A stretch of DNA of 64,000 bases from Nocardia spumae (lineage in GTDB: Bacteria > Actinomycetota > Actinomycetes > Mycobacteriales > Mycobacteriaceae). The position numbers and the translations under genes were made by a program. Of this stretch, positions 9,085-64,000 are shown one piece after another (the stretch's first letter is position 1; each line of letters starts with the position of its first letter). Where the stretch lies: assembly GCF_020733635.1 (NCBI RefSeq), contig NZ_JAJFZL010000001.1:4092001-4156000 (forward strand), given 5' to 3'. The notes beneath the pieces were generated by a model, which was not told the origin of the DNA, did not search any database, and saw only the letters and a list, made by a program, of their open reading frames with translations.

Positions 9085-9096
9085 CGGTCGCGCACC
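9064..9096 (+). terminator. Hairpin terminator overlapping the DUF305 stop codon
   Basis: A perfect 12-base inverted repeat (GGTGCGCGACCG and its complement) spans a 9-base loop that holds the TAA stop. There is no U-tract, as is common in this group. Confidence 0.6.
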
Positions 9097-9174
9097 GCAC
9101 CGGGACCGCGGTTGTCGGTGGGCGCGGTTATGGTCCCTGAGACCGACCCGGGCACTCGAAAGGTATGGACGCGA

Positions 9175-9888
9175 ATGACTGCCGATACGGCGATCACCAT
9201 TCCCGACCATGTACACGGCTATCCGGACCTGGCGTTCGGCGGCTATATCGCCGGGATGCTGGCCGATCGGGTCGGTGGTGAGGTGCGCGTCGACTTCCGC
9301 CGCGGCGTTCCGGTACGGACTCCGGTCCTGATCACCGATTCCGAATCCGGCTGCGTCCTCACCGATCTCGACGGCACCGTGCTGGCCGAGGCGAGTCCCG
9401 GCGCGGTGGAACTGGCGGTGCTGCCCCCGCCGTCGTGGGAGCAGGCCGTGCTCGCGTCCCGCGACTCCTTCGCCGCGGGCCGCCCCATTCCCGACTGCTA
9501 TGGCTGCGGCACCGCCAACACCCCCGGTCGTGGCCTGCGGCTGTACCCGTGGCGGCTACGCGGACACGACCTCGTCGCGGCCGCGTGGACTCCCGATATC
9601 GAACTGGCGGGCCCCGGTGGCCATCTGACCACCGAGAACATCTGGTCGGCCGTCGACTGTCCGGGCGGCTGGGCCGCGATCGATCTGGCCGGGATGCGTC
9701 CCGGCGGGGTCACCGCCGCGCTGACCACCCGGCACATCGCCCCCGTGCACGCCGGCGAGAAGTACCTGGTCTGGTCCTGGCCGATCGCGGCTTCCGGCCG
9801 CAAATACACCGTGGGCGTAGCGATTTCCACACCGGACGGCGATCTCGCGGTAGTGGCCGAGGCGCTCTGGATCGAGCCTCGGCGGTAG
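9175..9888 (+). CDS. Conserved hypothetical, hotdog-fold-like
   Basis: A 237-residue cytoplasmic protein. The motif IPDCYGCGTANTPGRGLRLYP near residue 103 is the kind of Cys-containing segment that opens PaaI-type hotdog thioesterase domains. The N-terminal half (LAFGGYIAGMLADRVGG) looks like a second, degenerate hotdog unit. A thioesterase or acyl-binding role is plausible but unproven. The ATG at 9175 was chosen because GAAAGG lies 11 bases upstream; an upstream GTG at 9112 has no such site. Confidence 0.6.
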   Translation: MTADTAITIPDHVHGYPDLAFGGYIAGMLADRVGGEVRVDFRRGVPVRTPVLITDSESGCVLTDLDGTVLAEASPGAVELAVLPPPSWEQAVLASRDSFAAGRPIPDCYGCGTANTPGRGLRLYPWRLRGHDLVAAAWTPDIELAGPGGHLTTENIWSAVDCPGGWAAIDLAGMRPGGVTAALTTRHIAPVHAGEKYLVWSWPIAASGRKYTVGVAISTPDGDLAVVAEALWIEPRR

Positions 9889-10081
9889 CCGACCCCCTCG
9901 CCTCGGCCGAGATTCACACCTGCCGCTCGCGTTGATGATCCATCGCCGATTCCCGGGGTCGCAGCGCGGCGACGCGGTCCCGCAGGTAGCCGCGCGGCCC
10001 GCCGCATGATCCGTGACCACGGCCGGTCCCGTCCGGAGCACTCCGGGCTCCCCGGCGCTCCGCACTGGAACCGGTTGTGGG

Positions 10082-10687
10082 TCAGGCGCCCGATATCGCG
10101 GCCAGGGCACGGTAGCCACCGGCGTAGGCGTGCGGGGTGACATCGCCGATCAACAGGTACTGCTGGATGAAACCCATCGTCGCACCGAGCATGACCTGCG
10201 CGATCGCGTCGACATCGGCGTCGGGCGGCAGGATCGCGGCGGACCGCGCCCGGACCAGCAGTTCACGCCAGGCCGCGCGCACCTGTCCGATTCGTTCTCG
10301 CACGATCTCGGCCACCGCCTCGTCGCGCCCCGCCTCCGCCCACGCCTGCACGGCCACGCGCGGAATATCCCCGTCTCCGTCGCGTGCGAGCTCTCGGATC
10401 TGCTCGAGGACGGATTCCAACGCGTCGATCGGCGACACCGGCGTCTCGGCATCGGTCAGCCGCGCCAGATTCGCGGTCATACGTCCCAGCACCGAATCGG
10501 CGATGGCGCGGATGATGTCGTTCTTGGACTTGAAGTAGCCGTAGACCGCACCCGCCGACATACCGGATTCGGCGATGACCGCGGCCATCGTCGTCTTGTG
10601 GAAACCCTCGCGGGCCACACAGCGCACCGCGGCGGCGATGAGCTGATCGCGGCGCGCGGCCCGGCGCGCTTCCGTCAGTCGCGGCAT
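10082..10687 (-). CDS. TetR family transcriptional regulator
   Basis: A 201-residue repressor. The N-terminal helix-turn-helix (TTMAAVIAESGMSAGAVYGYF, residues about 30-50) is typical TetR, followed by an all-helical ligand domain. It is divergent from a membrane protein, and the 97-base gap between them holds two copies of a GAACGTTC-centred operator. It therefore probably represses both itself and the membrane protein. Confidence 0.9.
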   Translation of the reverse strand: MPRLTEARRAARRDQLIAAAVRCVAREGFHKTTMAAVIAESGMSAGAVYGYFKSKNDIIRAIADSVLGRMTANLARLTDAETPVSPIDALESVLEQIRELARDGDGDIPRVAVQAWAEAGRDEAVAEIVRERIGQVRAAWRELLVRARSAAILPPDADVDAIAQVMLGATMGFIQQYLLIGDVTPHAYAGGYRALAAISGA

Positions 10688-10701
10688 GTCCGCATCATAA
10701 A

Positions 10702-10771
10702 AAGAACGTTCGTTCTTGACAACGCCGACGCGGCGAGCGCATGCTCGAACCACAAAACGAACGTTCCTTCT
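10702..10771 (+). promoter_or_regulatory. Two TetR operators flanking a promoter
   Basis: GAACGTTCnTTCT occurs twice on the plus strand, at 10704-10716 and 10759-10771. The first also forms a perfect inverted repeat, AAGAACG-TT-CGTTCTT at 10702-10717. A TTGACA -35 element at 10716-10721 overlaps the first copy, and a CATGCT -10-like element at 10740-10745 precedes the second. Binding would block RNA polymerase. Confidence 0.75.
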
Positions 10772-10784
10772 CTTTGGAGGCGTG

Positions 10785-11849
10785 ATGCGACCGCCGCTCG
10801 TCACCGTGCTCGGCCCGATTCTGGGCCTGTCCGCGCTGATCACCCTGCTCGTCACGGCATTCGCCTGGCCGACCTCCCAGCTGGCTCCGCGGCATCTACC
10901 GGTCGGGCTGGCCGGGCCCGCCCCCGCGGTGGAACAGGTCCGGACCGGACTCGGCACGCTGGGCCCCGACGCCCTCGACGCCACCGTCTTCCCCGACCGG
11001 GCCGCCGCGGTGACCGCCATCGAGAACCGCGACATCTACGGCGCGATCGTGATCTCGGCGAGCGGCCCGGAGGTGCTGACCGCGTCCGCGGCGAGCCCGG
11101 CGGTCGCCCAGGCATTGAGTGAGGCAGCGCGCCGTTCCGCCGTGTCCATGTCGCGGGTCGACTCGCCCTCCGCCACGGCCGCGGATCCGAACTCGAATAC
11201 CGCACCCCCACACCACCTCTCCCCCGCCCCGCAACCGCTGACCACCGATGTCGTCGCGGCCCCGCCGGCCGACCCACGCGGCGCGGTCTTCGGCCTCACG
11301 CTGGTGCCGATGGTCATCGGCGGCCTGCTGACCGGGGCCGCCCTGTCACTGCTACCCGTCGGCCGCGCGGCACGGATCGGAGCCGCCCTGACCGTGGCGG
11401 TCGTCACCGGATGCGCGGTGACCGCCGTGCTGCAGACCTGGCTCGGCGTCGTCACGGGCAGCTACCTCGCCGATGCGGCTGTGGCGGCCCTGGCGATCGC
11501 GGCGACGGCGATGGCGGTACTCGGCCTGCGCGCCACCCTCGGCATCGCCGGGATCGGCGTGGGCGCGGGGATCCTTGTCGCACTGGGCATCCCCCTGTCC
11601 GGCGCCATGTCGGCCCCGGAGTTGCTGCCGAGCGGCTGGGGCACCCTCGGCGCGTTCCTGCCACCGGGCGCGGCCGCCACCGCACTGCGCTCGACGGCCT
11701 ATTTCGACGGCGCGGGATCGGCTGCGGCCCTGGGGATTCTGGGTTGCTGGGCTCTGGGCGGACTGCTGCTGGCCACCATTCCCCGCCCGGTGCGCCTGGC
11801 CCGCCCGGCCGGTCGAGCCGCGGCAACAGCTACCGTCCCGACGACCTGA
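10785..11849 (+). CDS. Integral membrane protein, YhgE/Pip or ABC-2 permease-like
   Basis: A 354-residue membrane protein. One helix lies at residues 8-30, then an extracytoplasmic region of about 140 residues ending in a Pro-rich linker, then about five helices from 165 to 340. This one-plus-five layout resembles YhgE/Pip and ABC-2-type export permeases. No ATPase gene is adjacent. A TTTGGAGG ribosome-binding site precedes ATG 10785. It is controlled by the divergent TetR, so efflux of a TetR ligand is the most likely role (inference). Confidence 0.7.
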   Translation: MRPPLVTVLGPILGLSALITLLVTAFAWPTSQLAPRHLPVGLAGPAPAVEQVRTGLGTLGPDALDATVFPDRAAAVTAIENRDIYGAIVISASGPEVLTASAASPAVAQALSEAARRSAVSMSRVDSPSATAADPNSNTAPPHHLSPAPQPLTTDVVAAPPADPRGAVFGLTLVPMVIGGLLTGAALSLLPVGRAARIGAALTVAVVTGCAVTAVLQTWLGVVTGSYLADAAVAALAIAATAMAVLGLRATLGIAGIGVGAGILVALGIPLSGAMSAPELLPSGWGTLGAFLPPGAAATALRSTAYFDGAGSAAALGILGCWALGGLLLATIPRPVRLARPAGRAAATATVPTT

Positions 11850-11951
11850 GCACTGCCCGCACCCGATGCCCGGAGTTCGCCCCGAGTTAGCCCGTACTCG
11901 ATCTGGCCGATTGTGGCCCACGATACAATCGGGCCGGCTCGATCGATGCCG

Positions 11952-11982
11952 CCGACAACGCGAAACTACCCACGGGTAATAT
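11952..11982 (+). promoter_or_regulatory. Candidate glcB promoter with a dyad
   Basis: TAATAT at 11977-11982 is a good -10 hexamer. A weak CCGACA -35-like element lies at 11952-11957, 19 bases away. A small dyad, TACCC-AC-GGGTA, at 11967-11978 overlaps the -10 and may be an operator. Confidence 0.4.
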
Positions 11983-12028
11983 GACAGGCGTACTTTTTCC
12001 ATCCGGCTTTCTCGAAATGAGGCAGTAG

Positions 12029-14212
12029 ATGACAGAGCGGATTCAGGTCGGCGGACTCCAGGTGGCCAAGGTTCTTCACGATTTCGTGGAGAACGAGGCG
12101 CTCCCCGGCACCGACGTAGATTCCGCCGCGTTCTGGACCGGTGCGGAGGGCGTGATCAACGATCTCGCGCCGCGCAACCGCGCGCTGCTGGCCGAACGCG
12201 ACGAGATCCAGGGCAAGCTCGACGCCTGGCACGCCGAGAACCCGGGCACCGGCTACGACAAGGCCGCCTACAAGAACTTCCTCGCCGAGATCGGCTACCT
12301 GCGCGAGGAACCCGCCGATTTCTCCATCGGCACCCAGAACGTCGACGACGAGATCGCGACGACCGCCGGCCCGCAGCTGGTCGTGCCGGTCAGCAACGCC
12401 CGTTTCGCGATCAACGCCGCCAACGCGCGCTGGGGCTCGCTCTACGACGCGCTCTACGGCACCGACGCCATCTCCGAAGCCAACGGTGCCGAGAAGGGCA
12501 CCGGCTACAACAAGGTTCGCGGTGACAAGGTCATCGAGTGGGCCCGCAACTTCCTCGACGACGCCGTGCCGCTGATCACCGGTTCACATGTCGGCTCCAA
12601 GGCCTACAAGATCGTCGACGGCGAGCTCGAGGTCACCCTCGAGGACGGCACCGACATCGGCCTGGCCGACGCCTCCGCTCTGGTCGGCTACCTGGGCGAT
12701 CCGGCATCGCCGAGCTCGGTCCTGCTGCGCCACAACGGTTTGCACATCGACATCCAGATCGATCCCGAGTCGCCCATCGGCAAGACCGACGACGCCGGCG
12801 TCAAGGATGTGGCGCTGGAGTCCGCGGTGACCACGATCATGGACTTCGAGGACTCGGTCGCGGCGGTCGACGCCGACGACAAGGTCGCCGGCTACCGCAA
12901 CTGGCTGGGCCTGATGAAGGGCGATCTCGCCGAAGAGGTCACCAAGGGCGGCAAGACCTTCACCCGCACCATGAATCCGGACCGGGTCTACACCGGCCTG
13001 GACGGCAACGATGTGGTGCTGCACGGCCGTTCGCTGCTGTTCGTCCGCAACGTGGGCCACCTGATGACCTCCGACGCCATCCTCGACTCCGAGGGCAACG
13101 AGGTGCCCGAGGGCATCCTGGACGGCCTGATCACCTCGCTGATCGCGGTGCACTCGCTCAACGGCAAGGCCGCGGTGAGCAATTCGCGTACCGGCTCGGT
13201 CTACATCGTCAAGCCCAAGATGCACGGTCCCGACGAAGTCGCCTTCGCCAACGAACTGTTCGACCGTGTCGAGGATGTGCTGGGCCTGCCCCGCAACACC
13301 CTCAAGGTCGGCATCATGGACGAGGAGCGCCGCACCACGGTCAACCTGAAGGCCTGCATCGGCGCCGCGCGCGACCGCGTGGTGTTCATCAACACCGGCT
13401 TCCTGGACCGCACCGGCGACGAGATCCACACCTCCATGGAGGCCGGCGCGATGATCCGCAAGGCCGAGATGAAGCAGCAGCAGTGGATCCTGTCCTACGA
13501 GGACTGGAACGTCGACACCGGCCTGGCGACCGGTCTGCCGCACAAGGCGCAGATCGGCAAGGGCATGTGGGCGATGCCGGACCTGATGGCGGGCATGCTC
13601 GAGCAGAAGATCGGCCACCCGCGGGCCGGCGCCACCACCGCCTGGGTCCCGTCCCCGACCGCCGCCACGCTGCACGCCACCCACTACCACCTGGTGGACG
13701 TGTTCAAGCGGCAGGCCGAGATCGCCAAGGGCGGCCCCCGCGCCACGGTCGACCAGATCCTCGAGATTCCGCTGGCCGCCGACACCAACTGGTCGGCCGA
13801 GGACATCCGCAACGAACTGGACAACAACTCGCAGTCCATCCTGGGCTACGTGGTCCGCTGGATCGACCAGGGCGTCGGCTGCTCCAAGGTGCCCGACATC
13901 AACGATGTCGCGCTCATGGAAGACCGTGCAACCCTGCGTATCTCGAGCCAGCTGATGGCGAACTGGCTGCGCCACGGCATCGTCACCGACGCGCAGATCG
14001 TCGAGAGCCTGGAGCGGATGGCACCGGTGGTGGACCGGCAGAACGCCGGTGACGCCGCCTACAAGCCGATGGCTCCCGATTTCGCGGGCAGCGTCGCCTT
14101 CCAGGCCGCCAAGGAGCTGATCCTCGAGGGTGCGTGCCAGCCGAACGGCTACACCGAGCCGATCCTGCACCGCCGTCGCCGCGAGGCCAAGGCGCTCGCC
14201 GCCAAGGGCTGA
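12029..14212 (+). CDS. glcB: Malate synthase G
   Basis: A 727-residue enzyme condensing glyoxylate and acetyl-CoA to malate in the glyoxylate shunt, needed when growing on fatty acids or steroids. Family blocks are present in order: [39 protein letters not shown] (acidic Mg/substrate loop), the [17 protein letters not shown] block, [22 protein letters not shown] and a C-terminal plug. The length agrees with isoform G. It stands alone, with its own promoter region and a strong terminator. The counterpart in M. tuberculosis (Rv1837c) lies in the same conserved block. Confidence 0.97.
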
Positions 14213-40807: not shown

Positions 40808-40823
40808 TTAGAACCTGTTCTAA
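40808..40823. promoter_or_regulatory. KstR-type operator of the wax synthase gene
   Basis: TTAGAACctGTTCTAA is a perfect dyad with 7-base arms and contains the full consensus TnnAACnnGTTnnA. It overlaps a TCTAAT -10 candidate (40819-40824) and lies 12 bases before the start codon. Bound KstR would block transcription. Confidence 0.75.
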
Positions 40824-43207: not shown

Positions 43208-43221
43208 TAGAACACGTTGCA
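43208..43221. promoter_or_regulatory. KstR-type operator of the alpha/beta hydrolase gene
   Basis: TAGAACACGTTGCA satisfies every fixed position of TnnAACnnGTTnnA. A TAATAC -10-like element overlaps it on the minus strand (43210-43205). Confidence 0.6.
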
Positions 43222-53953: not shown

Positions 53954-54000
53954 TTCCAGCCAGTGAAATCGGCTGCGATACAACCGTGTTCGCGGTGTTA

Positions 54001-54071
54001 GAACGAATATGTGGTGGAAGCTGTCCGCGACGGCGCGGATATACAGCCCGCTTCCACCACATATTTCGTTC
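54001..54071. repeat. Long inverted repeat in the kshA leader
   Basis: Arms of 21 bases at 54001-54021 and 54050-54071 pair perfectly except for one bulged T; the core is ATATGTGGTGGAAGC. The 28-base loop contains a second stem, TCCGCG-ACGG-CGCGGA (54024-54039). It ends 14 bases before kshA, just before its ribosome-binding site. It could be an attenuator, an operator or a relic of a mobile element. Confidence 0.7.
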
Positions 54072-54085
54072 GAAGGACGGTGGAC

Positions 54086-55222
54086 ATGACAACGGTGCAC
54101 GACGAGGTTCGCCAGATCGAGGCCGAGACGGTGCCGGCACGGTTCGCACGCGGCTGGCACTGCCTGGGCCTGCTCAGGGACTTCTCCGACGGCCGACCGC
54201 ATTCGATCCAGGCCTTCGGCACCAAGCTGGTGGTCTTTCGCGGTGCGGACGGCCGGGTCAGCGTGCTCGACGCGTTCTGCCGGCACATGGGTGGCGATCT
54301 GTCCGACGGGCAGGTCAAGGGTAACGAGATCGCCTGCCCCTTCCACGACTGGCGCTGGGGCGGGGACGGGCGCTGCAAGCAGATCCCCTACGGCCGGCGG
54401 GTGCCGCCACTGGCGCGTACCAGGGCCTGGACGACGCTCGAACAGGACGGCATGCTGTTCGTCTGGAACGATCCGGAGGGCCACCCGCCGCCGGCCGAGG
54501 TGACCATTCCGCGCATCGAGGGCGCGGGCGCGGACAACTGGACCGAGTGGCACTGGTACACCACGATCGTCAACACCAACTGCCGCGAAATCATCGACAA
54601 CGTCGTGGATATGGCGCACTTCTTCTACATCCACGGATCGCTGCCGACCTATTTCAAGAATGTCTTCGAAGGAACGGTGGCAACCCAGTACTTCGAAAGC
54701 GGCGCCCGCGCCGACCTCCCCGGACCGGTCGGTCAGCCGCAGTTGCTCGGAACCTCGTCGGTCGCTTCATACTACGGGCCCTCGTTCATGATCGACGACC
54801 TCGTCTATCACTACGAGCACGGCGACTACAAGACCGTGCTGCTCAACTGCCACTATCCGATCGACGCGAATTCGTTCGTCCTGCAATACGGCATCATCGT
54901 CGAGAAGTCCGACACGCTGCCCGAGGATCAGGCGATGGCCACCGCCGTCGCACTCGGGGACTGGGTCAAGATCGGCTTCGAGCAGGACGTCGCGATCTGG
55001 AAGAGCAAGGCTCGCATCGACAATCCGCTGCTGTGCGAGGAGGACGGCCCGGTCTATCAACTGCGCCGCTGGTATCAGCAGTTCTACGTCGATGTCGCCG
55101 ACGTGGCCCCGGAGATGGTCGACAGGTTCGAATTCGAACTCGACACCACCCGACCGCTGGCCGCCTGGAATGCCGAGGTCACCGAGAACGTGGCCCGCAA
55201 AGCCGCGGAGGCGACCTCATGA
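54086..55222 (+). CDS. kshA: 3-ketosteroid 9-alpha-hydroxylase, Rieske oxygenase subunit KshA
   Basis: A 378-residue Rieske non-heme iron oxygenase. The [2Fe-2S] ligands are Cys65/His67 (FCRHMGGDL) and Cys84/His87 (CPFHDW). The mononuclear iron His pair lies in NVVDMAHFFYIHG (His178, His183), with an Asp in the C-terminal half. With KshB it hydroxylates C9 of androstenedione or androstadienedione, which together with KstD opens ring B. GAAGGACGG precedes ATG 54086. It is followed by an overlapping small Cys-rich protein. Confidence 0.95.
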   Translation: MTTVHDEVRQIEAETVPARFARGWHCLGLLRDFSDGRPHSIQAFGTKLVVFRGADGRVSVLDAFCRHMGGDLSDGQVKGNEIACPFHDWRWGGDGRCKQIPYGRRVPPLARTRAWTTLEQDGMLFVWNDPEGHPPPAEVTIPRIEGAGADNWTEWHWYTTIVNTNCREIIDNVVDMAHFFYIHGSLPTYFKNVFEGTVATQYFESGARADLPGPVGQPQLLGTSSVASYYGPSFMIDDLVYHYEHGDYKTVLLNCHYPIDANSFVLQYGIIVEKSDTLPEDQAMATAVALGDWVKIGFEQDVAIWKSKARIDNPLLCEEDGPVYQLRRWYQQFYVDVADVAPEMVDRFEFELDTTRPLAAWNAEVTENVARKAAEATS

Positions 55223-55488
55223 CCCCTCCCATCGATGAACGCATCCGGGACGTTCCCATGGCGCCGGTCGGGTGCCATCGGTGTGGCGCCCGCGTTCTCG
55301 CTCGCAAGAGCAGTCGGGCGCAGACGAGTATTCAATGGGACGCGGCATCGACCGCGGCGTGTATGGAACGTCATGCCGCGAGCGCGCTGTCGGAGGCCGG
55401 CATGCGGCACTGTTCCGCGCTTCGCGAATCCATCTGGGCCGCTGCGGAATCCGGGGAACTGTCGGTGCTCGACAATCCGGTCGGCTGA
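55219..55488 (+). CDS. Small Cys-containing protein coupled to kshA
   Basis: An 89-residue protein whose ATG overlaps the kshA stop (ATGA). It has CHRCGARVLARKSSRAQTS near residue 19 and two more Cys near 48 and 70. This could be a zinc ribbon-like or small Fe-S protein. Translational coupling suggests it helps KshA, for example in assembly or electron transfer; that is inference. No family is recognised with certainty. Confidence 0.7.
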   Translation: MTPPIDERIRDVPMAPVGCHRCGARVLARKSSRAQTSIQWDAASTAACMERHAASALSEAGMRHCSALRESIWAAAESGELSVLDNPVG

Positions 55489-55505
55489 GCGAGCTTCGCC
55501 CACGA

Positions 55506-55540
55506 ATCGGCCCTACCGTCGTGCGACGGGTAGGGCCGAT
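55506..55540. terminator. Bidirectional hairpin between kshA unit and IclR gene
   Basis: ATCGGCCCTACCGTCG pairs with CGACGGGTAGGGCCGAT, with one bulged base and a 2-base turn. It lies between two convergent genes and can serve both. Confidence 0.75.
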
Positions 55541-55556
55541 CTCGCTGCCGGAGACC

Positions 55557-56339
55557 TCAGACGTGCATCGGGCGGGGGCTCAGGCGTGGCGCACCGACGG
55601 CCAGCCGCCAGATTTCGTACGCCGCGCGGCGCACCTGCGTGACGACCGCGTCGGTATTGATCGTCCGCGTGGGACCACACAGTGACACCGCCACCCGGCC
55701 TCGGTCCACATCGACGTCGAGGGCGGCCGCCACCACGGTGACGCCCAATTCGCATCCTTGCGCGTCCACCGCCACCCCGCTGCGATCGCGCACCTTGTCC
55801 AGTTCGCGTTCGAGCTGCCGGCGGGTTCGCACGCTGTAGACGGTGGGTGCGTTCGCGAACGGCAACTCGGGCCACTGCTGCGGCTCCATCGCGGCCAGCA
55901 GCGCATGTCCGGCGGCGGTGAGTTCGAGGGGCTGGCGCGCCCCGACCGCCCACTGCCGCCCCGGGTTCGGCCAGGCCCCGACCCGGTTCAGATGCAGAAT
56001 CTCTCCCCCGGACAGCAGACTCAGGTGCGCGGTCAAACCCGTACGCCGGTGCAGCCCGGTCATGACGGTCATCGCCACATCGTTCACGCTGCGCTGGCGC
56101 ATCACCTGTGATCCGAACTCGAACATCCTGATCCCCAGTGCGTATTCGAACCCGTGGCGTTCCACCCAGCCCAGCTCCACGAGCCGCTGCAGGATTCGAT
56201 GCGCCGACGAGCGAGGCAGATGTGACCGCCGGGCGATGTCGGCCAACGTCATGGGCCGCTGTCCGACGAAAGCCTCCAGCAGAGAGGCCACCCGATCGAT
56301 CATCGCGTGAGGGGTCTGTTCGAGCTGCACCGTTGCCAC
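55557..56339 (-). CDS. IclR family transcriptional regulator
   Basis: A 260-residue regulator. The winged helix-turn-helix covers about 10-65 (TLADIARRSHLPRSSAHRIL), and the effector domain about 80-255 (LTAAGHALLAAMEPQQW, SGVAVDAQGCELGVTVVAA). GGAGG precedes GTG 56339. IclR proteins near aromatic or steroid pathways sense intermediates. It is divergent from a TetR gene across a promoter with a duplicated TGTCAGA palindrome, and lies next to kshA. Confidence 0.92.
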   Translation of the reverse strand: MATVQLEQTPHAMIDRVASLLEAFVGQRPMTLADIARRSHLPRSSAHRILQRLVELGWVERHGFEYALGIRMFEFGSQVMRQRSVNDVAMTVMTGLHRRTGLTAHLSLLSGGEILHLNRVGAWPNPGRQWAVGARQPLELTAAGHALLAAMEPQQWPELPFANAPTVYSVRTRRQLERELDKVRDRSGVAVDAQGCELGVTVVAAALDVDVDRGRVAVSLCGPTRTINTDAVVTQVRRAAYEIWRLAVGAPRLSPRPMHV

Positions 56340-56362
56340 CTGTTACCTCCAACCGCCAGTCA

Positions 56363-56399
56363 TGTCAGACTCTGTCTACCTGTCAGAATCTGACATAAT
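56363..56399. promoter_or_regulatory. Duplicated palindrome between IclR and TetR genes
   Basis: TGTCAGA-A-TCTGACA (56381-56395) is a perfect 15-base palindrome. An imperfect copy, TGTCAGACTCTGTCT (56363-56377), lies exactly 18 bases away. CATAAT (56394-56399) is a -10 candidate for the TetR gene. Likely operator of the IclR or TetR protein. Confidence 0.75.
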
Positions 56400-56531
56400 C
56401 GAGTGTAAGGAGGGCGCTGATGGATGTAAAGCAGATCACACCGATCTGTCCGCCCAGTAGGAAAGACACGGACGCGACCAGCGATTTCCCGACCGCGATA
56501 CTGTGGACTGCGACCAAGGAGGACAGTGGCC

Positions 56532-57167
56532 GTGAGCAAGCCGTCCAGGCCCACGCTGACCGAACGCCGCGCGGAGGAGCTCCGCCTCACCATCGCGAAC
56601 ACCGCGCGCGACATGTTCGTCGCCGACGGGGACACCTCCGCGACCGTGGAGCGGATCTGCGAGACCGTCGGCATCGCGCCGAGGACCTTCCACCGGCACT
56701 TCCCGGTGAAGGAAGACGTCATGGGTCCGCTGTTCCGGCGCAGCCAGGCGCTGATCATCGACTTCCTGAAGAACGCGCCGGCCGACGCCGACGCGGCGGA
56801 GACCCTGGCCCGCGCGTTCACCACCGAGGTCTACAACCGCAAGACTCCCGAATCCGACCGCACATTCATGACTTTGATGATCAACACGCCGCAGTACCGG
56901 CTGCGATGGCTGGAGTGGGGTGAGCAGCTCTGCGGCCCGATCACGGAATTCCTCTCGGCGCGAGTCGATCTCGGGGACGACCCGTTCCTGCGGAAGCTGC
57001 CCGCCGAGTTGATCGTGCACACCAGCCGCCAGGCCTATATCCAATGGGTCGACAACGAGGACTGCGGCGATTTCTCCGAGGTGGAGGCACTGCAGCTGCG
57101 GGGCATGAAGATGCTGCTGGTCGGGCTCCGAGCGGTCATGACGCAACCGGCGGTCCCAGCGCCCTAG
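56532..57167 (+). CDS. TetR family transcriptional regulator (steroid locus)
   Basis: A 211-residue repressor. The helix-turn-helix contains TVERICETVGIAPRTFHRHF at about 38-57, and the C-terminal part is of the MftR/TetR_C type (TLARAFTTEVYN, LRWLEWGEQ). AAGGAGG lies 9 bases upstream of GTG 56532, so this start is better than GTG 56526. A leader of about 125 bases separates it from the presumed promoter and holds a second ATG (56420) with an AAGGAGGG site in another frame. It lies between the KshA and HsaD-type genes and may control them. Confidence 0.88.
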   Translation: MSKPSRPTLTERRAEELRLTIANTARDMFVADGDTSATVERICETVGIAPRTFHRHFPVKEDVMGPLFRRSQALIIDFLKNAPADADAAETLARAFTTEVYNRKTPESDRTFMTLMINTPQYRLRWLEWGEQLCGPITEFLSARVDLGDDPFLRKLPAELIVHTSRQAYIQWVDNEDCGDFSEVEALQLRGMKMLLVGLRAVMTQPAVPAP

Positions 57168-57219
57168 CCGCCCCGCCCCCGCGTCGGCGCCGGTGATCGC
57201 ACCGGCGCCGACGCCGCGG

Positions 57220-58086
57220 CTATCGGGCGAGAAACGCCGAAACGGTCGCCTCCCATGCCTGCTTCTGCTCGATCATCACCCAGTGCCCGCAGTTCGGGAA
57301 GATGTGCACCTCACCGTTCGGCAGTGTCCGCATCGCGATCAGCGACATGTCGACCGGGCTCACCCGGTCGTCACGTCCCCAGGTGATCAGGGTCGGCACG
57401 GAGATACGGCGCAGATTCGCCCAGCCGGGGACGGTGTCGGCATCGCGCGCCGCCTCCGCCATGCGGGCCAGTGCCGCCCGCCCGTACATCCGCCGCGAGT
57501 TCTCCAGCACGTCCGGTTCGGTCGCCTGCTCCCACCGCTGTTCGATCAGTTCCTCGGTCAGCAGCGTGTGGTCGTAGACCATCGATCGAAGCCATGCCAC
57601 CAGACTGTCGCGAGTCGGGTTCTCGACGAACTCGCTGAGCCGGATGATGCCCTCCCCCGGCTGCGGACCGAAGATCGTGGTGCCGATGCCGCCGATGGTG
57701 ACCAGACGGTCGACGCGCTGCGGCGCGGCCAGCGCGAATTCCGTTGCGACGAAACCACCCATCGAGTTTCCGATGATCCGGACGCGGTCGAGACCGAGCC
57801 CGTCCAGGAAGGCGGTGACCGCCCGCTGCGCCGACATCATCGGATGCACCGCACCGAAATCGTCGCTCACTCCGAATCCGGGAAACTCCAGGACGAGCGT
57901 GCGGTAGTGCTGTGCGAACGTCGGCACGTTACCGCTGAAATTGCGCCAGCCGGTCACGCCGGGCCCGGACCCGTGCAGCAACAGCAGCGGCGGGCCCTCT
58001 CCGCTGTCGCGATAACGCAGCACGCCGTGTTCGGTGGGCAATTCCAGCAATTCGGGCACCGCGCGGGTGTCGACGGATGTACTCAT
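57220..58086 (-). CDS. hsaD: Meta-cleavage product hydrolase, HsaD-like
   Basis: A 288-residue alpha/beta hydrolase of the C-C bond hydrolase class. The oxyanion motif is HGSGPGVTGWRNF at 38-50, the nucleophile Ser108 is in GNSMGG, and the acid Asp240 (WGRDDRVSP) and base His268 (CGHWVMIEQ) complete the triad. It resembles HsaD and BphD. HsaD splits 4,9-DSHA, the ring-A meta-cleavage product, into a hexadienoate and the CD-ring acid. It lies on the same strand as hsaC, kstD and hsaA but is separated from them by an acetyltransferase gene. Confidence 0.88.
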   Translation of the reverse strand: MSTSVDTRAVPELLELPTEHGVLRYRDSGEGPPLLLLHGSGPGVTGWRNFSGNVPTFAQHYRTLVLEFPGFGVSDDFGAVHPMMSAQRAVTAFLDGLGLDRVRIIGNSMGGFVATEFALAAPQRVDRLVTIGGIGTTIFGPQPGEGIIRLSEFVENPTRDSLVAWLRSMVYDHTLLTEELIEQRWEQATEPDVLENSRRMYGRAALARMAEAARDADTVPGWANLRRISVPTLITWGRDDRVSPVDMSLIAMRTLPNGEVHIFPNCGHWVMIEQKQAWEATVSAFLAR

Positions 58087-58259
58087 ATCCCGAGCCTGCC
58101 ACCGCCCACGCACCGCGACGCCGTCTTTTCCCGGTGAGCGGCACGCTGGTTCACCCTGCCCGAGATCCGGGTCCGGCCGGGTGAAAGCCGCTGCGATCGA
58201 GCGGATCTCGCCAGGGCCTCCGGTACTCAGGCCGTAGATCGTGGTGCGAATGGCCGCTG

Positions 58260-58703
58260 TCAGAGGAGTTTGCGGTAGTAGACGACTCGTTCGCGTTCCT
58301 CGAAGCCGAGACCCCTGTGCATCTCGTGGCCCGCCGAATTGTCGATCAACGCATCGGAACCCAACTCGGTACAGCCCGACTCGCGACCCCATTCCTCCAC
58401 GGCGGCGCACAGCGCTCGGGCCGCGCCGGACCGCCGCTGCCCCGGTTCGACGTAGATCCCTTCGAGGAACACCACCGGCGAGGTGTCGCAACCATTGACA
58501 TAGTCGTTGCGGAGTGTGGCTTCGCCGAATCCGATCACGGCGCCGTCCTCGCTACGAGCCAGAAACGCCACGGCAGGGCGCTCGCCGCCGTAGGTCTTTT
58601 CGACGTCGGCGCGATGCTCGGCCACCGTTGCGTCCGGCCACAGCCGTGCACGCATACCCGCGAGCACATCCAGATCGGAATCACGGTAACGATCGATTCT
58701 CAC
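58260..58703 (-). CDS. AAC(6')-I-like aminoglycoside N-acetyltransferase (GNAT)
   Basis: A 147-residue GNAT protein. NDYVNGCDTSPVVFLEGIYV and the acetyl-CoA loop QRRSGAARAL match the aminoglycoside 6'-N-acetyltransferase AAC(6')-I group closely, as do SGCTELGSDA and HRGLGFEERERVVYYRK. Such enzymes acetylate the 6'-amino group of tobramycin- or amikacin-type drugs. Activity on drugs is inferred and the native substrate may differ. It interrupts the steroid gene series and has its own leaderless-type promoter. Confidence 0.85.
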   Translation of the reverse strand: MRIDRYRDSDLDVLAGMRARLWPDATVAEHRADVEKTYGGERPAVAFLARSEDGAVIGFGEATLRNDYVNGCDTSPVVFLEGIYVEPGQRRSGAARALCAAVEEWGRESGCTELGSDALIDNSAGHEMHRGLGFEERERVVYYRKLL

Positions 58704-58709
58704 CCTCGG

Positions 58710-58715
58710 ACCCTA
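58710..58715 (-). promoter_or_regulatory. Leaderless promoter of the acetyltransferase gene
   Basis: TAGGGT on the minus strand, inside TATATAGGGT, lies 6 bases before GTG 58703. No ribosome-binding site is evident. Confidence 0.45.
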
Positions 58716-58817
58716 TATACCGAAGCTGCGACAGTGCGATCCGTCGAGCCGATCGGTCACCGGTCCCCGCTGACGCCCGCCCCATCAGCGGACCCCGCGA
58801 CGATCGACGACCGCGTA

Positions 58818-59354
58818 CTAGAGCGGTCCGGTGACGACGCGTCCGTACTCGCCGCGGAAGAACACCAGCGGCGAGCGCCCCGACGCGTGCAGACGACGTA
58901 CCCGCGACACCACGATGGTGTGGTCACCCGCCGGATACTCCGCCTCCGGCTCCGCCTCGATCCAGGCCAGGCAGTCGGTGAGGACCGGCGCGCCCAGTGG
59001 TGACGAATCCCAGTCGATTCCCCGGAACTTCTCCCCGCCGCGGGCCGCCAGCTGACGACAGACGCCTTCTTGGTTGTCGGACAGGATGTTGACGACATAG
59101 CGCCCGCCCGCCCGCACCGACGGCCACGAGGTACTCGACGCGGCCACACAGAAGGCGATCAGCGGCGGATCCAGTGACACCGAGGTGAACGAGTTGGCGG
59201 CCAGGCCGGTCGGCTGCCCGGTCTGTGGGTCGATACCGGTGATCGCGACGACGCCGGTCGCGAAATGTCCGAGGACACTGCGCATCACGGCAGGATCGAC
59301 TTCCGGGATATCCACGCCGGCCGGCTCCGCCGCGACGAATCGAGGGCCGGTCAT
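58818..59354 (-). CDS. hsaB: Flavin reductase, HsaB-like
   Basis: A 178-residue flavin reductase. VMRSVLGHFATGVVAITGID near residue 25 and GLAANSFTSVSLDPPLIAF are the flavin-binding signature of the HpaC/HsaB family, and SVRAGGRYVVNILSD follows. HsaB supplies reduced FMN or FAD to the hydroxylase HsaA. The ATG at 59354 overlaps the stop of the flavin-oxidoreductase relic (ATGA), keeping it in the kstD operon. Specific pairing with HsaA is inferred from the operon. Confidence 0.88.
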   Translation of the reverse strand: MTGPRFVAAEPAGVDIPEVDPAVMRSVLGHFATGVVAITGIDPQTGQPTGLAANSFTSVSLDPPLIAFCVAASSTSWPSVRAGGRYVVNILSDNQEGVCRQLAARGGEKFRGIDWDSSPLGAPVLTDCLAWIEAEPEAEYPAGDHTIVVSRVRRLHASGRSPLVFFRGEYGRVVTGPL

Positions 59355-59569
59355 GATCCGCTCACCGCATTCGTCTCGGGCACCGCCGGCACGCAGTGGG
59401 TGTCGGAGAAGATCGTCGGCATGCATTTGTTGCGGTGAACGCACAGCGATTTCACCGAATGGTCGGCGTCGATCCGGTGGAAAGTGGCCGATTTGATGGG
59501 CCGGTTGCGCAGGGTTACCGGTCCCAGCCGCGCCGGAGCGAGCACATCGGGAATACCGTGCGCGCCCAT
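59351..59569 (-). pseudogene. In-frame internal-deletion relic of an OYE-type NADH:flavin oxidoreductase
   Basis: A 72-codon frame joins the N-terminal segment of an old-yellow-enzyme-like protein (DVLAPARLGPVTLRNRPIKS) directly to its C-terminal segment (VKSLCVHRNKCMPTIFS). About 300 residues of the barrel between are gone, so catalysis is impossible. The frame is intact. It keeps a 1-base gap from the kstD stop and an ATGA overlap with the flavin reductase start. It may now serve only translational coupling, or encode a micropeptide with a C-x4-C pair. Confidence 0.75.
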
Positions 59570-59570
59570 A

Positions 59571-61277
59571 TCAGCCCCGCCCCGCGGACGCCGCGGCGGT
59601 CTTCGCGGCGATGTAACCGAAGACCAGTCCCTGGCCGATCGTCGCGCCGGCACCCGGATAGGTGTTGCCGAAAGCGTTGGCCGCGGTATTGCCGATCGCG
59701 TACAGGCCGTCGATCACGCTGCCGTCCTCGCGCAGTACCCGAGCCGATCCGTCCGCACGCAGACCGCCGCACGTGCCCAGATCCGACAGCACCAGCTTCA
59801 CCGCGTACAGCGCCCCCGTGCGGCCCAGCGGCCGCAGATTCGGGTTGGGGGCGATGGTGGGGTCGCCGTAGTAGCGGTCGTATGCGCTGGCGCCCCTGGA
59901 GTATTCGTGATCGACCCCCAGTTCCGCGGCGGCGTTGAAGGTGTCGAAGGTCGTGCCGAACTCCTCCGCGGGCACACCCATGGCCCGGGCGAGCCCGGCC
60001 GGATCGAGCGCCGTCACCGCGATGCCGTTGTCGTACCAGGGCTGCGGCAGCGGCTGGCGGGGAAACAGGCCCGCGGCGAAGATGTAGCTGTTGCGGTAGC
60101 GCTGGTCGAAGACCAGCCACATATCCTCCACCGGATCGCCCGCGCGCTCCCGCTCGAGGACACGCTGTCCGAACGACATGTAGTCGGTGGCCTCGTTGAC
60201 GAACCGGCGGCCGCGCTGGTCGACGATGAACGACCCGGGCAGCGCGCGCTCGGCCAGCAGCACCGCCGGCTCCCCGCCCGGTAATGCCGCCACGGCCGGG
60301 AACCACCAGGCCTGATCCATCAGGCCGATCGCGGCACCGGCTTCCTGCGCCAGCTTGATGGCGTCACCGGTATTGGCCTCGCAGCCCAGGCTGGCGTGCT
60401 CGATCAACCTGTCCGACTGGAACTTTCGCCGCATCTGCGTGTCGTGGTCGAACCCTCCGGCGGCGAGTACGACTCCCCGGCGTGCGGTCACCGCGGTGAG
60501 CGTCCCCTCGCGATCGACGACCGCTCCGGTGACCACTCCGTCCGCTTCGATCAGCCGCACCAGGGCGGTGTCGGTCCAGATGGGAATTCCGGCGCGCAGA
60601 GCGCCCGCGAACAGACCCGCGGCCAATGCTTGTCCGCCGGCGATGTATTCGCGTTTGAGTGCGAGACCGCCGACGCCGGTCGCCATGGCCTTCATGCCAC
60701 GCCAGAGCGCCTTGCGGGGAGTCTTCGCGATCAGATTCAGCCACTTGTAGTCGGCACCGGTCACCGGCATCGGCAGGCCCGACGCCTCCATCACGCCGGG
60801 GCGCAGGCGCGACCGCTGGGAGCCGAGCTGCGCGGCATCGAACGGTGTGCATTCGCAGGTGCGCCCCGCCGCCGATCCGCCGGGCAGTTCGGGGTGATAG
60901 TCGGAATAGCCGTCGGCCCACATGAATTTCATCGGTGTGGTCCGCGCGAGCATCTCGACGGTGGCGGGCCCGTGTGCGAGGAAGGCCGCGCCCCGCTCGC
61001 GCGGAGCCGAATCCCCCACGACCGCTTCGACATACGCCGATGCGGCGGCGGCGCCGTCGGCGGGCTGCCGGTCGGCGAGCACGAAATTGCCCGGCACCCA
61101 GAATGCCCCGCCCGAACGTGCCGTGGAGCCGCCGACATATCCCGACTTCTCCACGACCAGGGCCGACAATCCGGCCTCGGCGGCGGTCAGGGCAGCCGCC
61201 AGACCGGTTCCCGACCCCACGATCAGCAGATCGACCTCGTGCTGTGCCATGGGTGTGTTGTTTTCGGTGGAGTTCAT
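59571..61277 (-). CDS. kstD: 3-ketosteroid delta-1-dehydrogenase
   Basis: A 568-residue FAD enzyme. The dinucleotide motif is GSGTGLAAALTAAEAG at 21-36 with E43, followed by KSGYVGGSTARSGG. The C-terminal catalytic region includes NTYPGAGATIGQGLVFGY. It introduces the 1,2-double bond in ring A, making androstadienedione-type products. Combined with 9-alpha-hydroxylation this triggers ring B opening. ATG 61277 follows GAAAGG; ATG 61250 is an alternative. It starts 14 bases after hsaC ends. Confidence 0.94.
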   Translation of the reverse strand: MNSTENNTPMAQHEVDLLIVGSGTGLAAALTAAEAGLSALVVEKSGYVGGSTARSGGAFWVPGNFVLADRQPADGAAAASAYVEAVVGDSAPRERGAAFLAHGPATVEMLARTTPMKFMWADGYSDYHPELPGGSAAGRTCECTPFDAAQLGSQRSRLRPGVMEASGLPMPVTGADYKWLNLIAKTPRKALWRGMKAMATGVGGLALKREYIAGGQALAAGLFAGALRAGIPIWTDTALVRLIEADGVVTGAVVDREGTLTAVTARRGVVLAAGGFDHDTQMRRKFQSDRLIEHASLGCEANTGDAIKLAQEAGAAIGLMDQAWWFPAVAALPGGEPAVLLAERALPGSFIVDQRGRRFVNEATDYMSFGQRVLERERAGDPVEDMWLVFDQRYRNSYIFAAGLFPRQPLPQPWYDNGIAVTALDPAGLARAMGVPAEEFGTTFDTFNAAAELGVDHEYSRGASAYDRYYGDPTIAPNPNLRPLGRTGALYAVKLVLSDLGTCGGLRADGSARVLREDGSVIDGLYAIGNTAANAFGNTYPGAGATIGQGLVFGYIAAKTAAASAGRG

Positions 61278-61291
61278 CGCGGTCCGGCCTT

Positions 61292-62197
61292 TCACGCTTG
61301 CTTCATCTGCTTCGCCCACAGCCATTCGTGCCCCCAGTAGCTGTCGGCGGTGATCTCCTCGGCGGTGTAGTAGGCCTCATCGACCGGCTCGCCCGCGGTC
61401 CCGTATTCGATATCCCAGCCGCCCGGTACCCCGACGTAGAAGGAGATCATCTTGTCGTTGGTGTGCCGGCCCAGCGTCGACGACACCGGGAAGTCCCTGG
61501 CCACCACCTGATCCAGGGCCCGGCCCACGGCATCGAGTGAGTCGACCTCGACCATCACGTGGATCAGACCGGGATCGCGTCCCTCCAGCGCCGGCATGAT
61601 CGCCAAGCTGTGATGTCGCTGATTCACGCCGAGAAATCGGATGCGCAGCGGTCCGGCCCCGGGAGGCGACGGCATCCGGAACGCGCCGCGGGACAAGAAC
61701 CCCAGCGTCTCGGTGTAGAAAGCGTAGGACTCCTCGAAGTTGGCGGTCGGCATCACCACATGACCGAGACCCTGTGCGCCGGTGACGAACCGCTGGGCGT
61801 ACTTGGTGACCACCGGGCTGTGTTCGAGAACCGGACCGTGGAAGAACTCCAGCGGCGTGCCACCGGGGTCGGTCATGCACAGACCCGCTTCGACCTTGCG
61901 CCGGTCGGCGAGTTCGGTCGACATGACCGTGTACTCGAATCCCGCGGCGTCCAGAGTCGCGGCCAGGCGGCGCAGCGCCGGCGCGTCGCGCACTTCCCAG
62001 CCGACCGCGCTCACCCTGTCGACATCGGCGCGCTCGACGGTGATCCGCGATGGCCGCTCGTCCATCCGGAAGTGCAGCGCGTCGGTCTCGTCTCCGAATC
62101 CCGGTGCGAAGCCGAGGACGTCGAAGCCCAGTTCCCGCCAGCGATCCATATCCGTGGCAAGCACCCGGACGTAGCCGAGCCCTTTGATTTCACTCAT
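61292..62197 (-). CDS. hsaC: Extradiol dioxygenase HsaC
   Basis: A 301-residue type I extradiol dioxygenase with two vicinal-oxygen-chelate domains. Iron ligands are His146 (GLGHVVMP), His213 (LIHVMVEV) and Glu264 (WDIEYGT). Catalytic His195 and Tyr254 are present. The sequence tracks M. tuberculosis HsaC (RFVTGAQGLGHVV, TLGRHTNDKMISFYV). It cleaves the catechol 3,4-DHSA next to a hydroxyl group. It lies 29 bases after hsaA. Confidence 0.95.
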   Translation of the reverse strand: MSEIKGLGYVRVLATDMDRWRELGFDVLGFAPGFGDETDALHFRMDERPSRITVERADVDRVSAVGWEVRDAPALRRLAATLDAAGFEYTVMSTELADRRKVEAGLCMTDPGGTPLEFFHGPVLEHSPVVTKYAQRFVTGAQGLGHVVMPTANFEESYAFYTETLGFLSRGAFRMPSPPGAGPLRIRFLGVNQRHHSLAIMPALEGRDPGLIHVMVEVDSLDAVGRALDQVVARDFPVSSTLGRHTNDKMISFYVGVPGGWDIEYGTAGEPVDEAYYTAEEITADSYWGHEWLWAKQMKQA

Positions 62198-62226
62198 CGA
62201 CAACTCACGTTCTCTCTCGGGGTCGG

Positions 62227-63411
62227 TCAGATCATCACGCGCAGGGGACCCTGCGGTACTTCCACACCCAGCGAGGCCATCGCCGAGGCGTGATAGGTGG
62301 TGCTGGTGACGTGGATGGCGTGGTGCAGGCCGGCGTGGGCGTCACGCCAGAACCGCTGCAGCGCGTTGTCCATCCGCAGCGCGTTGCCTCCCGCGCGGTC
62401 GAAGATGTCGTCGGCGGCGCGGACCGCCCGCCAGGCGGCGCGGATCTGATCGCGGCGGACTCGGGCGCGCATGCCGAAATCGATCTCCTCACCCGCGTCG
62501 ACCAGGTCCCAGATGCGGTCCACATTGGCCAGCAACTGCTGGCGGGCGGCGTCGATCTCCGAGGCGGATTCGCCGAGCGCGTGCAGGACGTAGGGGTCGT
62601 CCTTGACCAGGGTTCCGGTGGCTCCCACCCGGTTTCGCTGATAGTCGATCCCGGCGGCGAGTACGCCCTCGCAGATACCGATGGTGGCCGAGGTGATGCC
62701 CAGCGGGAACATGGTCGACCACGGCATCCGGTACAGGGTTTCGGTGACGCCGTATTCCAGGGCCGCGCTCCCGTCGATGACCTTCGCCTGGTCCATCACC
62801 CGGTAGTCGGGAATGAACGCGCCCTTCACCACGATGTCCTTGCTGCCGGTGCCGCGCAGCCCGACGACATCCCACGAGTCCGCCACGATCTCGTAGTCCG
62901 ACCGGGGCAGGATCACGTGCAGCGGCTGCGGTGGCATCAGCGGTTCACCGTCCGCGTCGCCCACCAGGGCGCCCAGGAAGATCCAGTCGCAGTGGTCGGT
63001 ACCGGAGGAGAACTGCCAGCGCCCACTCATGACATATCCGCCGTCGGCGGGTACCGCGACACCGCCCGGCATATAGGGCGATGCCATCCAGATGTCGGTG
63101 TCCTCGCCCAGCACCTCTTCCTGGACTCGGGGATCGGCGAACGCGAGTTGCCACGGGTGCACGCCGACGATGCCGGCCACCCAGCCCGCCGAGCCGTAGA
63201 GGCTCGCGGTCTTCATCACCGTCTCGGCGAACTCACGCGGATGCGCCTCGTAGCCGTCGTACTTCTTGCGCTGCAGCATCCGGATGATGCCCGCGTCCTT
63301 CAGCCGTTCGGCCATGTCGTCGGGCAGCCGGCCCAGCGAGTCACCCTCTTCGGCCCCGTTGCGAATCTCCGCGGCGATGCGTTCGATATTGCCGATCACT
63401 GTGTTGGACAT
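62227..63411 (-). CDS. hsaA: 3-HSA hydroxylase, oxygenase component HsaA
   Basis: A 394-residue flavin-dependent monooxygenase of the acyl-CoA-dehydrogenase fold (group D). GSAGWVAGIVGVHPWQLAF, SGRWQFSSGTDHCDWIFLGA and DSWDVVGLRGTGSKDIVV are typical of HsaA. It uses reduced flavin from HsaB to add a 4-hydroxyl to the phenolic ring of 3-HSA, giving the catechol for HsaC. The start is ATG 63411. It lies 94 bases after kshB ends. Confidence 0.95.
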   Translation of the reverse strand: MSNTVIGNIERIAAEIRNGAEEGDSLGRLPDDMAERLKDAGIIRMLQRKKYDGYEAHPREFAETVMKTASLYGSAGWVAGIVGVHPWQLAFADPRVQEEVLGEDTDIWMASPYMPGGVAVPADGGYVMSGRWQFSSGTDHCDWIFLGALVGDADGEPLMPPQPLHVILPRSDYEIVADSWDVVGLRGTGSKDIVVKGAFIPDYRVMDQAKVIDGSAALEYGVTETLYRMPWSTMFPLGITSATIGICEGVLAAGIDYQRNRVGATGTLVKDDPYVLHALGESASEIDAARQQLLANVDRIWDLVDAGEEIDFGMRARVRRDQIRAAWRAVRAADDIFDRAGGNALRMDNALQRFWRDAHAGLHHAIHVTSTTYHASAMASLGVEVPQGPLRVMI

Positions 63412-63505
63412 GGGGCTCAGCTTGGCCGCTCGGACCGCCCCTGTGACGTGAATCTCCTACTCATCGGAACACCGAATCGAACGCCTCGTTTCCGATGCCC
63501 AGGGC

Positions 63506-64000
63506 TCAGTACTCGATCGAGATCTCGTCGCTGACCGGAACGGCCTGGCACGCCAGAATGTAGCCGTCGGCGATATCGTCGGAGGACAGGATCTCGTTGT
63601 GCGCCAATTCGACTCGCCCCGATGTCAGCGAGCACACACAGGCACTGCACGCCCCCTCACGGCACGAGTACGGCGCGTCGAGTCCGGCCGCGAGCAGCGC
63701 ATCGAGAAGCTTCTGCCCCGAGGTCCACGGCACGCGATGGTCGGCGCCGTCGAGGGATACCTCGACGGCGCACACGAGCTCGCCCGCCGCGTCACCGGCT
63801 TCCGCGGTGACCGCGAAGGGGTCACGCCGCAGCGACAGGAACCGCTCCGTATGCACCTGGGCCTGTGGAAACCCCACGGACGCACAGACATCGGCGGCCA
63901 GATCCATCAGGGGCGCCGGTCCACAGATGAAGACCGACCGATCGATGAACGGCCGCAACAGTATCGAGAGCATGCGCCGCGTCGGATAGCCCTGGACGGA
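63506..64000 (-). CDS. kshB: Ferredoxin reductase KshB, C-terminal part (partial)
   Basis: The frame is open to the window end, so the N-terminal FAD/NAD domain is mostly outside. Visible are the end of the NAD domain (DRSVFICGPAPLMDLA) and a plant-type ferredoxin domain whose cluster Cys lie in PYSCREGACSACVCSL and YILACQAVP. This FNR-ferredoxin order is that of KshB and HsaA-cluster reductases. It would pass electrons from NADH to the Rieske centre of KshA. It heads the visible minus-strand operon. Confidence 0.9.
   Translation of the reverse strand, partial: SVQGYPTRRMLSILLRPFIDRSVFICGPAPLMDLAADVCASVGFPQAQVHTERFLSLRRDPFAVTAEAGDAAGELVCAVEVSLDGADHRVPWTSGQKLLDALLAAGLDAPYSCREGACSACVCSLTSGRVELAHNEILSSDDIADGYILACQAVPVSDEISIEY

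Follow-up and report, generated by a model that had tools for sequence, protein, structure and literature searches.

A compact steroid A/B-ring-opening gene set in Nocardia spumae that resembles C-19+ clusters, and a small four-cysteine companion of its KshA

The entry to the opening of steroid rings is 3-ketosteroid 9alpha-hydroxylase (KSH), which the literature treats as an industrially interesting enzyme of two components (PMC4064121). Several kinds of its oxygenase component, KshA, have been distinguished. Structures 4QDC, 4QDD and 4QDF are of KshA from Rhodococcus rhodochrous (PMC6153880); KshA1 is apparently dedicated to cholate (PMC4064121), and KshA5 shows a kinetic preference for substrates without a C17 side chain (PMC6153880). 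In Mycobacterium neoaurum ATCC 25795, a second steroid cluster with the genes for KstD2 and KstD3 is a homologue of the M. smegmatis C-19+ cluster; it seems to have evolved independently of the KstR regulon and to be needed for efficient use of C-19 steroids (PMC5962712). Gene cluster 2 of RHA1, with proteins of M. smegmatis and R. erythropolis, forms a third actinobacterial subclade, given as of unknown function (PMC4810484). The locus considered here, from the 7.07 Mb genome of Nocardia spumae, occupies positions 54086-64000 of a stretch of 64,000 nucleotides (the window), bases 4092001-4156000 of the largest contig. Judged from its sequence, and with a probability of about two in three, this module is a compact KstR-independent set that opens the A and B rings of steroids lacking a side chain (androstenedione, androstadienedione and their kin). 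Its most novel part, which matters more than the module itself, is a small gene, orfS, that follows kshA.

The module encodes KshA, KshB, KstD and HsaA-, HsaB-, HsaC- and HsaD-like enzymes, together with two regulators and orfS:

54086..55222, plus strand: KshA, oxygenase of 3-ketosteroid 9alpha-hydroxylase, C-19+/KshA5-like (Pfam KshA_C, best chain 4qdf_B, tree)
55219..55488, plus strand: orfS, four-cysteine companion of KshA, 89 residues (4-nt overlap with the kshA stop; profile)
55557..56339, minus strand: IclR-family regulator (IclR_C 67.4 bits, HTH_IclR 59.8 bits)
56381..56395, no strand: candidate operator TGTCAGAATCTGACA between iclR and tetR, a perfect palindrome (palindrome scan)
56526..57167, plus strand: TetR-family regulator (TetR_N 27.8 bits, cut-off 24)
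57220..58086, minus strand: HsaD-like meta-cleavage product hydrolase (NF045632 251.3 bits, under the cut-off of 400)
58818..59354, minus strand: HsaB-like flavin reductase (NF045630 158.6 bits, under the cut-off of 230)
59571..61277, alternative start 61325, minus strand: KstD, 3-ketosteroid Delta1-dehydrogenase (NF009479, PRK12845, 1000.3 bits, cut-off 793)
61292..62203, minus strand: HsaC-like extradiol dioxygenase (NF045631 316.3 bits, under 450; TIGR03213 328.1 bits, under 366)
62227..63411, minus strand: HsaA-like flavin-dependent monooxygenase, oxygenase part (NF045629 389.8 bits, under 450; best chain 2or0)
63506..64000, on to 64582 outside the window, minus strand: KshB, reductase of the 9alpha-hydroxylase (open reading frame of 358 residues, 11507-12583 of the overlapping stretch L005)

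The seven enzymes and two regulators are where an earlier note on this DNA had put them, all as open frames with family matches (IclR and TetR by Pfam), though kshB runs 582 bases past the window's edge, its Fer2 domain lying in the part within. On the minus strand lie kshB, hsaA, hsaC, kstD, hsaB, an acetyltransferase open reading frame (ORF), hsaD and iclR, several of which may be transcribed as an operon; kshA, orfS and tetR lie on the plus strand, with iclR between orfS and tetR. KshA matches KshA_C at 299 bits (cut-off 23.3) and Rieske at 76.5 bits (cut-off 20.3), and its motifs can be read from the sequence (Rieske CRH..CPFH; DMAHFFYIH), as can the nucleophile motif GNSMGG of the HsaD-like protein. 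KstD exceeds the curated cut-off of the PRK12845 equivalog. The HsaA-D-like proteins each find the right NCBIfam model, at 63-87% of its curated cut-off, and because these scores fall under the equivalog cut-offs, the set is taken to be divergent and its members are named "-like".

KstD and KshAB would convert a 3-ketosteroid to 3-HSA, from which the HsaAB-like pair would make a catechol. The HsaC-like enzyme would cleave the catechol, and the HsaD-like hydrolase would release the C/D-ring acid (DOHNAA or HIP) and a dienoate, both to be finished by enzymes encoded elsewhere. The claim of the earlier note that every step from androstenedione to the product of HsaD is covered agrees with the enzyme set found by family match. 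Its description of the module as nearly self-contained holds up to HsaD and no further: HsaF (PF07836) is found at just two places in the genome, 6.65 and 5.19 Mb (no search was made for HsaE or HsaG), and since HsaF is encoded only elsewhere, the pathway of the module ends with HsaD. Control of expression probably lies with the divergent regulators TetR and IclR, acting through TGTCAGAATCTGACA between them, and with a separate site ahead of kshA. A full or near match to TGTCAGAATCTGACA is present in the iclR/tetR gap of 9 of the 10 loci compared and is absent from L079; relatives of the TetR protein (E ≤ 1e-60) occur in 7 of 301 genomes of a sample of the family.

KstR control of the module was considered and rejected by motif. 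From 43222 to 64000 of the window there is no match to TNNAACNNGTTNNA with at most one mismatch, so that the nearest one is more than 10 kb away, in line with the earlier note, which saw no KstR-type box in the locus; nor is there an exact TNNAACNNGTTNNA in L005 and L006 (40 kb), which cover the module and its right side. Over the whole window, matches with at most one mismatch number 7, against 4.0 expected, and at least 7 were found in 9 of 100 shuffles. Exact KstR-like boxes do occur far from the module, at 6663, 40809-40822 and 43208-43221. From the start of the second of these it is 27 bases to an ORF at 40836, which by eye resembles a wax ester synthase/acyltransferase.

The kinship of KshA points to the C-19+ kind. 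Among solved chains, the module's KshA scores 631.6 bits against 4qdf_B, which is taken here to be KshA5 of R. rhodochrous, 548.7 against 4qdc, taken to be KshA1 of the same species (the cholate-dedicated form), and 505.7 against M. tuberculosis 2zyl. By sequence score only, 4qdf_B thus beats 4qdc by 83 bits, and the protein does not fall with the group of KshA1 and KshA3 that marks cholate clusters of the RHA1 cluster 3 type. The same ranking of the three chains is given by the KshA at locus L089 of M. neoaurum ATCC 25795 (584.7, 531.5 and 504.9 bits). In a tree of 84 KshA proteins, drawn from loci found by likeness of their KstD or KshA to those of the module and therefore hardly sampling the cholesterol-type KshA of other species, the module's protein falls inside a set of 65 rows with support of 100, together with Nocardia and all 35 mycobacterial rows, L089 among them; both other KshA proteins of the same genome fall outside. 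The tree left out loci fetched twice (L031, L032, L034, L035, L095, L141-L148, L154-L157, L168), short loci of the same genome, L033 and the genome's own Rieske protein of 27% identity. Hence, the module has a KshA in the clade of a documented cluster homologous to C-19+, carries no KstR box and stands apart from the cholesterol cluster. Its HsaA finds its best solved relative in 2or0, presumably an RHA1 protein, at 526.7 bits against 306.5 for the next.

One might ask whether the genome has another set for the same task. The KshA_C family is found at four places: besides the module, there are two other true KshA proteins, 59% and 61% identical to the module's, and a fourth KshA_C protein (the Rieske protein, 27%). 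Searches with KshA, KstD and HsaC, and local searches, give three A/B-ring sets in all: the module, one at 6.64 Mb and one at 2.1 Mb (cluster B). The set at 6.64 Mb has KstR boxes ahead of kshA and kstD (two exact TNNAACNNGTTNNA sites), and the nearest solved chain of its KshA is that of M. tuberculosis (575.2 bits). For the KshA of cluster B, the closest chain is 4qdc (582.2 bits, then 544.6 and 510.5); the KshB of this cluster is 54% identical to the module's, and 80 kb of the region hold no exact KstR box. A further KstD, 48% identical, is encoded at 5.59 Mb. The genes of the module are thus not the only copies in the genome. Their being the only copies, and induced by cholesterol through KstR, is what the earlier note had named as telling against its proposal of an accessory set apart from the cholesterol regulon; with two further sets and no KstR motif at the module, that proposal stands.

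The module has relatives in other Nocardia. A probe with HsaC on 148 genomes of the genus found a copy at 92% or more in 8 (this one included) and at 80-87% in 19, with both in 2. The comparison took in 20 stretches: one around each of the 7 other near copies, and 13 from the 80-87% class, which has 20 places. The near copies are compact, holding kshA-orfS, iclR, tetR, hsaD, kstD, hsaC and hsaA, with enzymes 87-96% identical to the module's. In none of the 7, within 20 kb each, was kshB or hsaB found, and the window copy is the only compact one to hold them; the simplest reading would be that they were kept here and lost in the others. One compact copy, L116 (G133, 8914-12199), has no kstD; its hsaA, hsaC and kshA adjoin, and its match to orfS is partial (39%). 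The places of the 80-87% class are longer clusters, and in one of these, L126, the iclR/tetR pair is present at 62%. When flanks of 3.3 kb were compared among the 8 compact copies, at least one side agreed among L112-L115, and L116 agreed with L117, while those of the window and of L111 each stand alone (the longest match of a window flank, 147 bases, is to L111). Since flanks differ among compact copies, the unit has evidently moved. The module is probably a compact, relocated C-19+-like cluster without HsaF, derived from a larger one through gene loss and relocation. GC content does not mark it out as foreign (67.1% against 67.9%), and no plasmid copy of its type of KshA was seen among 72,556 plasmid records (KshA in 14, best 67.6%). 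The nearest named relatives of its KstD, at 87-89%, are in Nocardia aobensis, kruczakiae, africana, cerradoensis and mikamii and in Nocardia sp. BSTN01.

Several observations weigh against a module for side-chain-less steroids of the C-19+ kind. PadR is reportedly the regulator of the C-19+ cluster, and none is present among the ORFs scanned, whose only regulators are TetR and IclR. L089, which shares kshA (78%), kstD (67%), orfS (49%) and a TetR gene (57%, beside kshA) and has a second kstD, shows no match to HsaA, HsaC or HsaD in its 15 kb. The KshA tree was made by a quick method, and long branches were flagged for both other KshA proteins of this genome. Also, KshA5 accepts cholesterol, cholate and progesterone substrates besides those it prefers (PMC6153880), and given that range, a broad or backup role for the module is possible. 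Finally, kshA2 of R. ruber, which has no KstR motif, is strongly up on androstenedione but also on cholic acid (PMC8228715), a response that the module might share.

That response to cholic acid, and a gene content that also resembles cholate clusters, might suggest an accessory module for bile acids of the cholate type. Such a module is rather improbable: the KshA nearest to 4qdc sits in cluster B while the module's ranks 4qdf_B first, the tree separates the two, and none of the 10 scanned ORFs is a side-chain gene. The substrates proposed by the earlier note, a bile acid or a plant steroid, are probably wrong on the same evidence, the C-19+/KshA5 type of the module's KshA and the more cholate-like protein in another of the genome's own clusters. 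It is unlikely, if a little less so, that the module serves a ring-modified steroid (7-keto, estrane or plant-derived androstanes) or the detoxification of androstadienedione. The RHA1 kstD gene ro02483 (its number near that of kshA2, ro02490) is up on 7-ketocholesterol and not on cholesterol, and so are two kstD genes of the cholate cluster (PMC5348764); in R. erythropolis, 9-OHAD induces kshA2, which has been proposed to limit androstadienedione (PMC4064121). The module's lack of an HsaF of its own also speaks for such a role. However, the scanned ORFs hold only standard A/B-ring enzymes, with nothing specific to ring modification. Perhaps, instead, the module is a decaying duplicate with no function of its own. 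The absence of kshB and hsaB from all seven other compact modules, and the further absence of kstD from L116, where orfS has only a partial match, have that look, but in the window every gene, also kshB and hsaB, is a full-length open frame, and elsewhere the compact copies keep highly similar enzymes and a conserved regulator site, so decay is very improbable. The reading that the module opens the A and B rings of androstenedione-type steroids would make it a small natural unit that takes them to the C/D-ring acid under its own regulators, of possible use in steroid biotechnology, and would help to explain why these bacteria have several copies of KshA and KstD.

The start of orfS lies inside the stop codon of kshA (ATGA). 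In a profile of 26 sequences, the four cysteines, K30, S32, W40, I72 and A75 are invariant. Run against its own genome, the profile finds three places, one directly behind each of the three KshA genes; at the cholesterol cluster, the aligned stretch was flagged with one TAG, yet an open frame of 86 residues runs from 258 to 518 of L012. The association extends beyond the genus. Among 197 genomes of the class (155 of those without a match are given unnamed), KshA (E ≤ 1e-80) and orfS (E ≤ 1e-6) are found together in 22, and neither occurs in any other; these 22 are not independent, 14 being of the same family as the window (its own genome included) and 5 of one other genus. Of 38 orfS matches, 35 begin at most 240 nt behind a KshA match on the same strand, as counted by hand from coordinates; the other three are at G003:C87 (two) and G018:C10 (one), and 8 of 43 KshA genes have no orfS behind them. 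In the fetched loci, orfS follows 60 of 65 KshA genes of at least 70% identity but 5 of 19 of those at 50-69% (2 more were not countable), and in 12 of the 14 latter cases without an adjoining orfS, it is present at another place in the locus.

No Pfam or NCBIfam model takes in the orfS family above its cut-off. At E ≤ 1, Pfam offers only a zinc ribbon (14.4 bits, under the cut-off of 24), and no NCBIfam ferredoxin model matches four of its members at E ≤ 0.1, although 5 of 13 relatives found by sequence bear the NCBI name ferredoxin. No paper on an orfS-like protein is among the matches listed from the open-licence literature. The gene after kshA in M. tuberculosis is presumably Rv3527. One source gives Rv3527 as hypothetical (PMC6429209). 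Because orfS is inherited together with kshA and coupled to it, a role in the assembly or function of KSH may be supposed. The chances appear even that orfS is an unrecognised third component of KSH, an obligate four-cysteine partner (binding Zn or an Fe-S cluster) in assembly, stability or electron transfer that is produced along with KshA in actinomycetes, in the cholesterol pathway as well. A small protein so inherited suggests that KSH expression systems may have been lacking a component.

The region ahead of kshA has features of its own:

53961..54005, plus strand: promoter-like element of kshA, CAGTGAAAT followed after about 35 nt by TGTTAGAAC, a putative regulator site and -10 (recurrence)
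53985..54088, plus strand: strong hairpin in the leader of kshA that extends to the start codon (minimum free energy -61.7 kcal/mol, z -9.0)

The two parts of the first element recur in similar order and spacing, with variation, ahead of kshA in many Nocardia and in several mycobacterial promoters of the C-19+ type, and the composite pattern has a single match in the window. A promoter-like role is suggested by this recurrence, and a regulator may bind here. As for the hairpin, the genome holds only this full copy, and a suggestion, weaker in novelty than orfS, is that it is a structured mRNA leader controlling kshA in Nocardia. The alignment of leaders left out 9 of 30 rows (L143-L147, L162, L168 and L169, which have no such leader, and L048, the same gene as L160). 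In the 21 Nocardia leaders that remain, three adjacent outer-stem pairs are kept in 21, 20 and 20, and one of these shows a C-G/T-A exchange (13 and 7); a fourth pair holds in 17 of 20, with exchanges, and the next four in 17, 15, 13 and 11 of 20. The inner stem aligns poorly, and RNAalifold finds only 4 consensus pairs. Over all 30 rows, folding is strong only in the window copy, L141 (z -7.8), and in L142 (-6.6), the same gene as that of L111; the other 28 range from -2.1 to +1.9, and some carry no such leader. No Rfam family matches the leader at E 1. An origin as a miniature inverted-repeat transposable element was rejected, the 101-base element matching fully only once in the genome: of 32 matches, one is full, a second is the inverted repeat of the element itself, and 30 span only 14-29 bases. 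Farther along, a conserved block, GTGTTCCGATGAGTAGGAGA, stands ahead of hsaA in L111 and L113-L117, and in the window at 63412-63505, between kshB and hsaA. Since the block is kept in that position, hsaA may keep a promoter or ribosome site of its own.

Three further features complete the locus:

55506..55540, no strand: terminator-like inverted repeat in the orfS/iclR gap (palindrome scan)
57179..57216, no strand: terminator-like inverted repeat in the convergent tetR/hsaD gap (palindrome scan)
58260..58703, minus strand: AAC(6')-type GNAT acetyltransferase ORF (NF043067 164.1 bits, cut-off 140)

The acetyltransferase ORF sits inside the presumed steroid operon, with hsaB on one side and hsaD on the other, and, as a query, has no match in the seven other compact modules or in the other loci compared. 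Like orfS, it was passed over in the earlier note. Past the module, on the opposite strand (L005 14481-16873), two ORFs that by eye resemble a ferredoxin reductase and a fatty acid desaturase may form a desaturase pair.

How, then, does the module stand with respect to known systems? The genome's own cholesterol cluster at 6.64 Mb carries out the same enzymatic steps but differs in its KstR boxes, its KshA like that of M. tuberculosis, and its HsaA-D, which are 39-44% identical to the module's. Full Nocardia clusters (e.g., L126 and L123) come closer: L126 (G049) holds orfS-kshA, kshB, hsaA, hsaC, hsaB, hsaD, kstD, tetR and iclR, yet it is longer, with 2.6 kb of other sequence from hsaC to hsaB, and the compact form has a rearranged order. 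RHA1 gene cluster 2, a third subclade beside those of cholesterol and cholate (PMC4810484), resembles the module in that standing and may be tied to it by the likeness of HsaA to 2or0. With the C-19+ cluster of M. smegmatis and M. neoaurum, the module shares its standing as a second, KstR-independent set and a KshA of the same clade; it departs from that cluster in being compact, in lacking HsaF, in showing no PadR or second KstD among the ORFs seen, in its iclR/tetR pair with a palindrome of its own, and in having kshB and hsaB inside it. With no PadR among the ORFs scanned, full membership is not claimed, and the module is described, so far as its sequence can tell, as one that would work like the C-19+ kind and is probably related to it.

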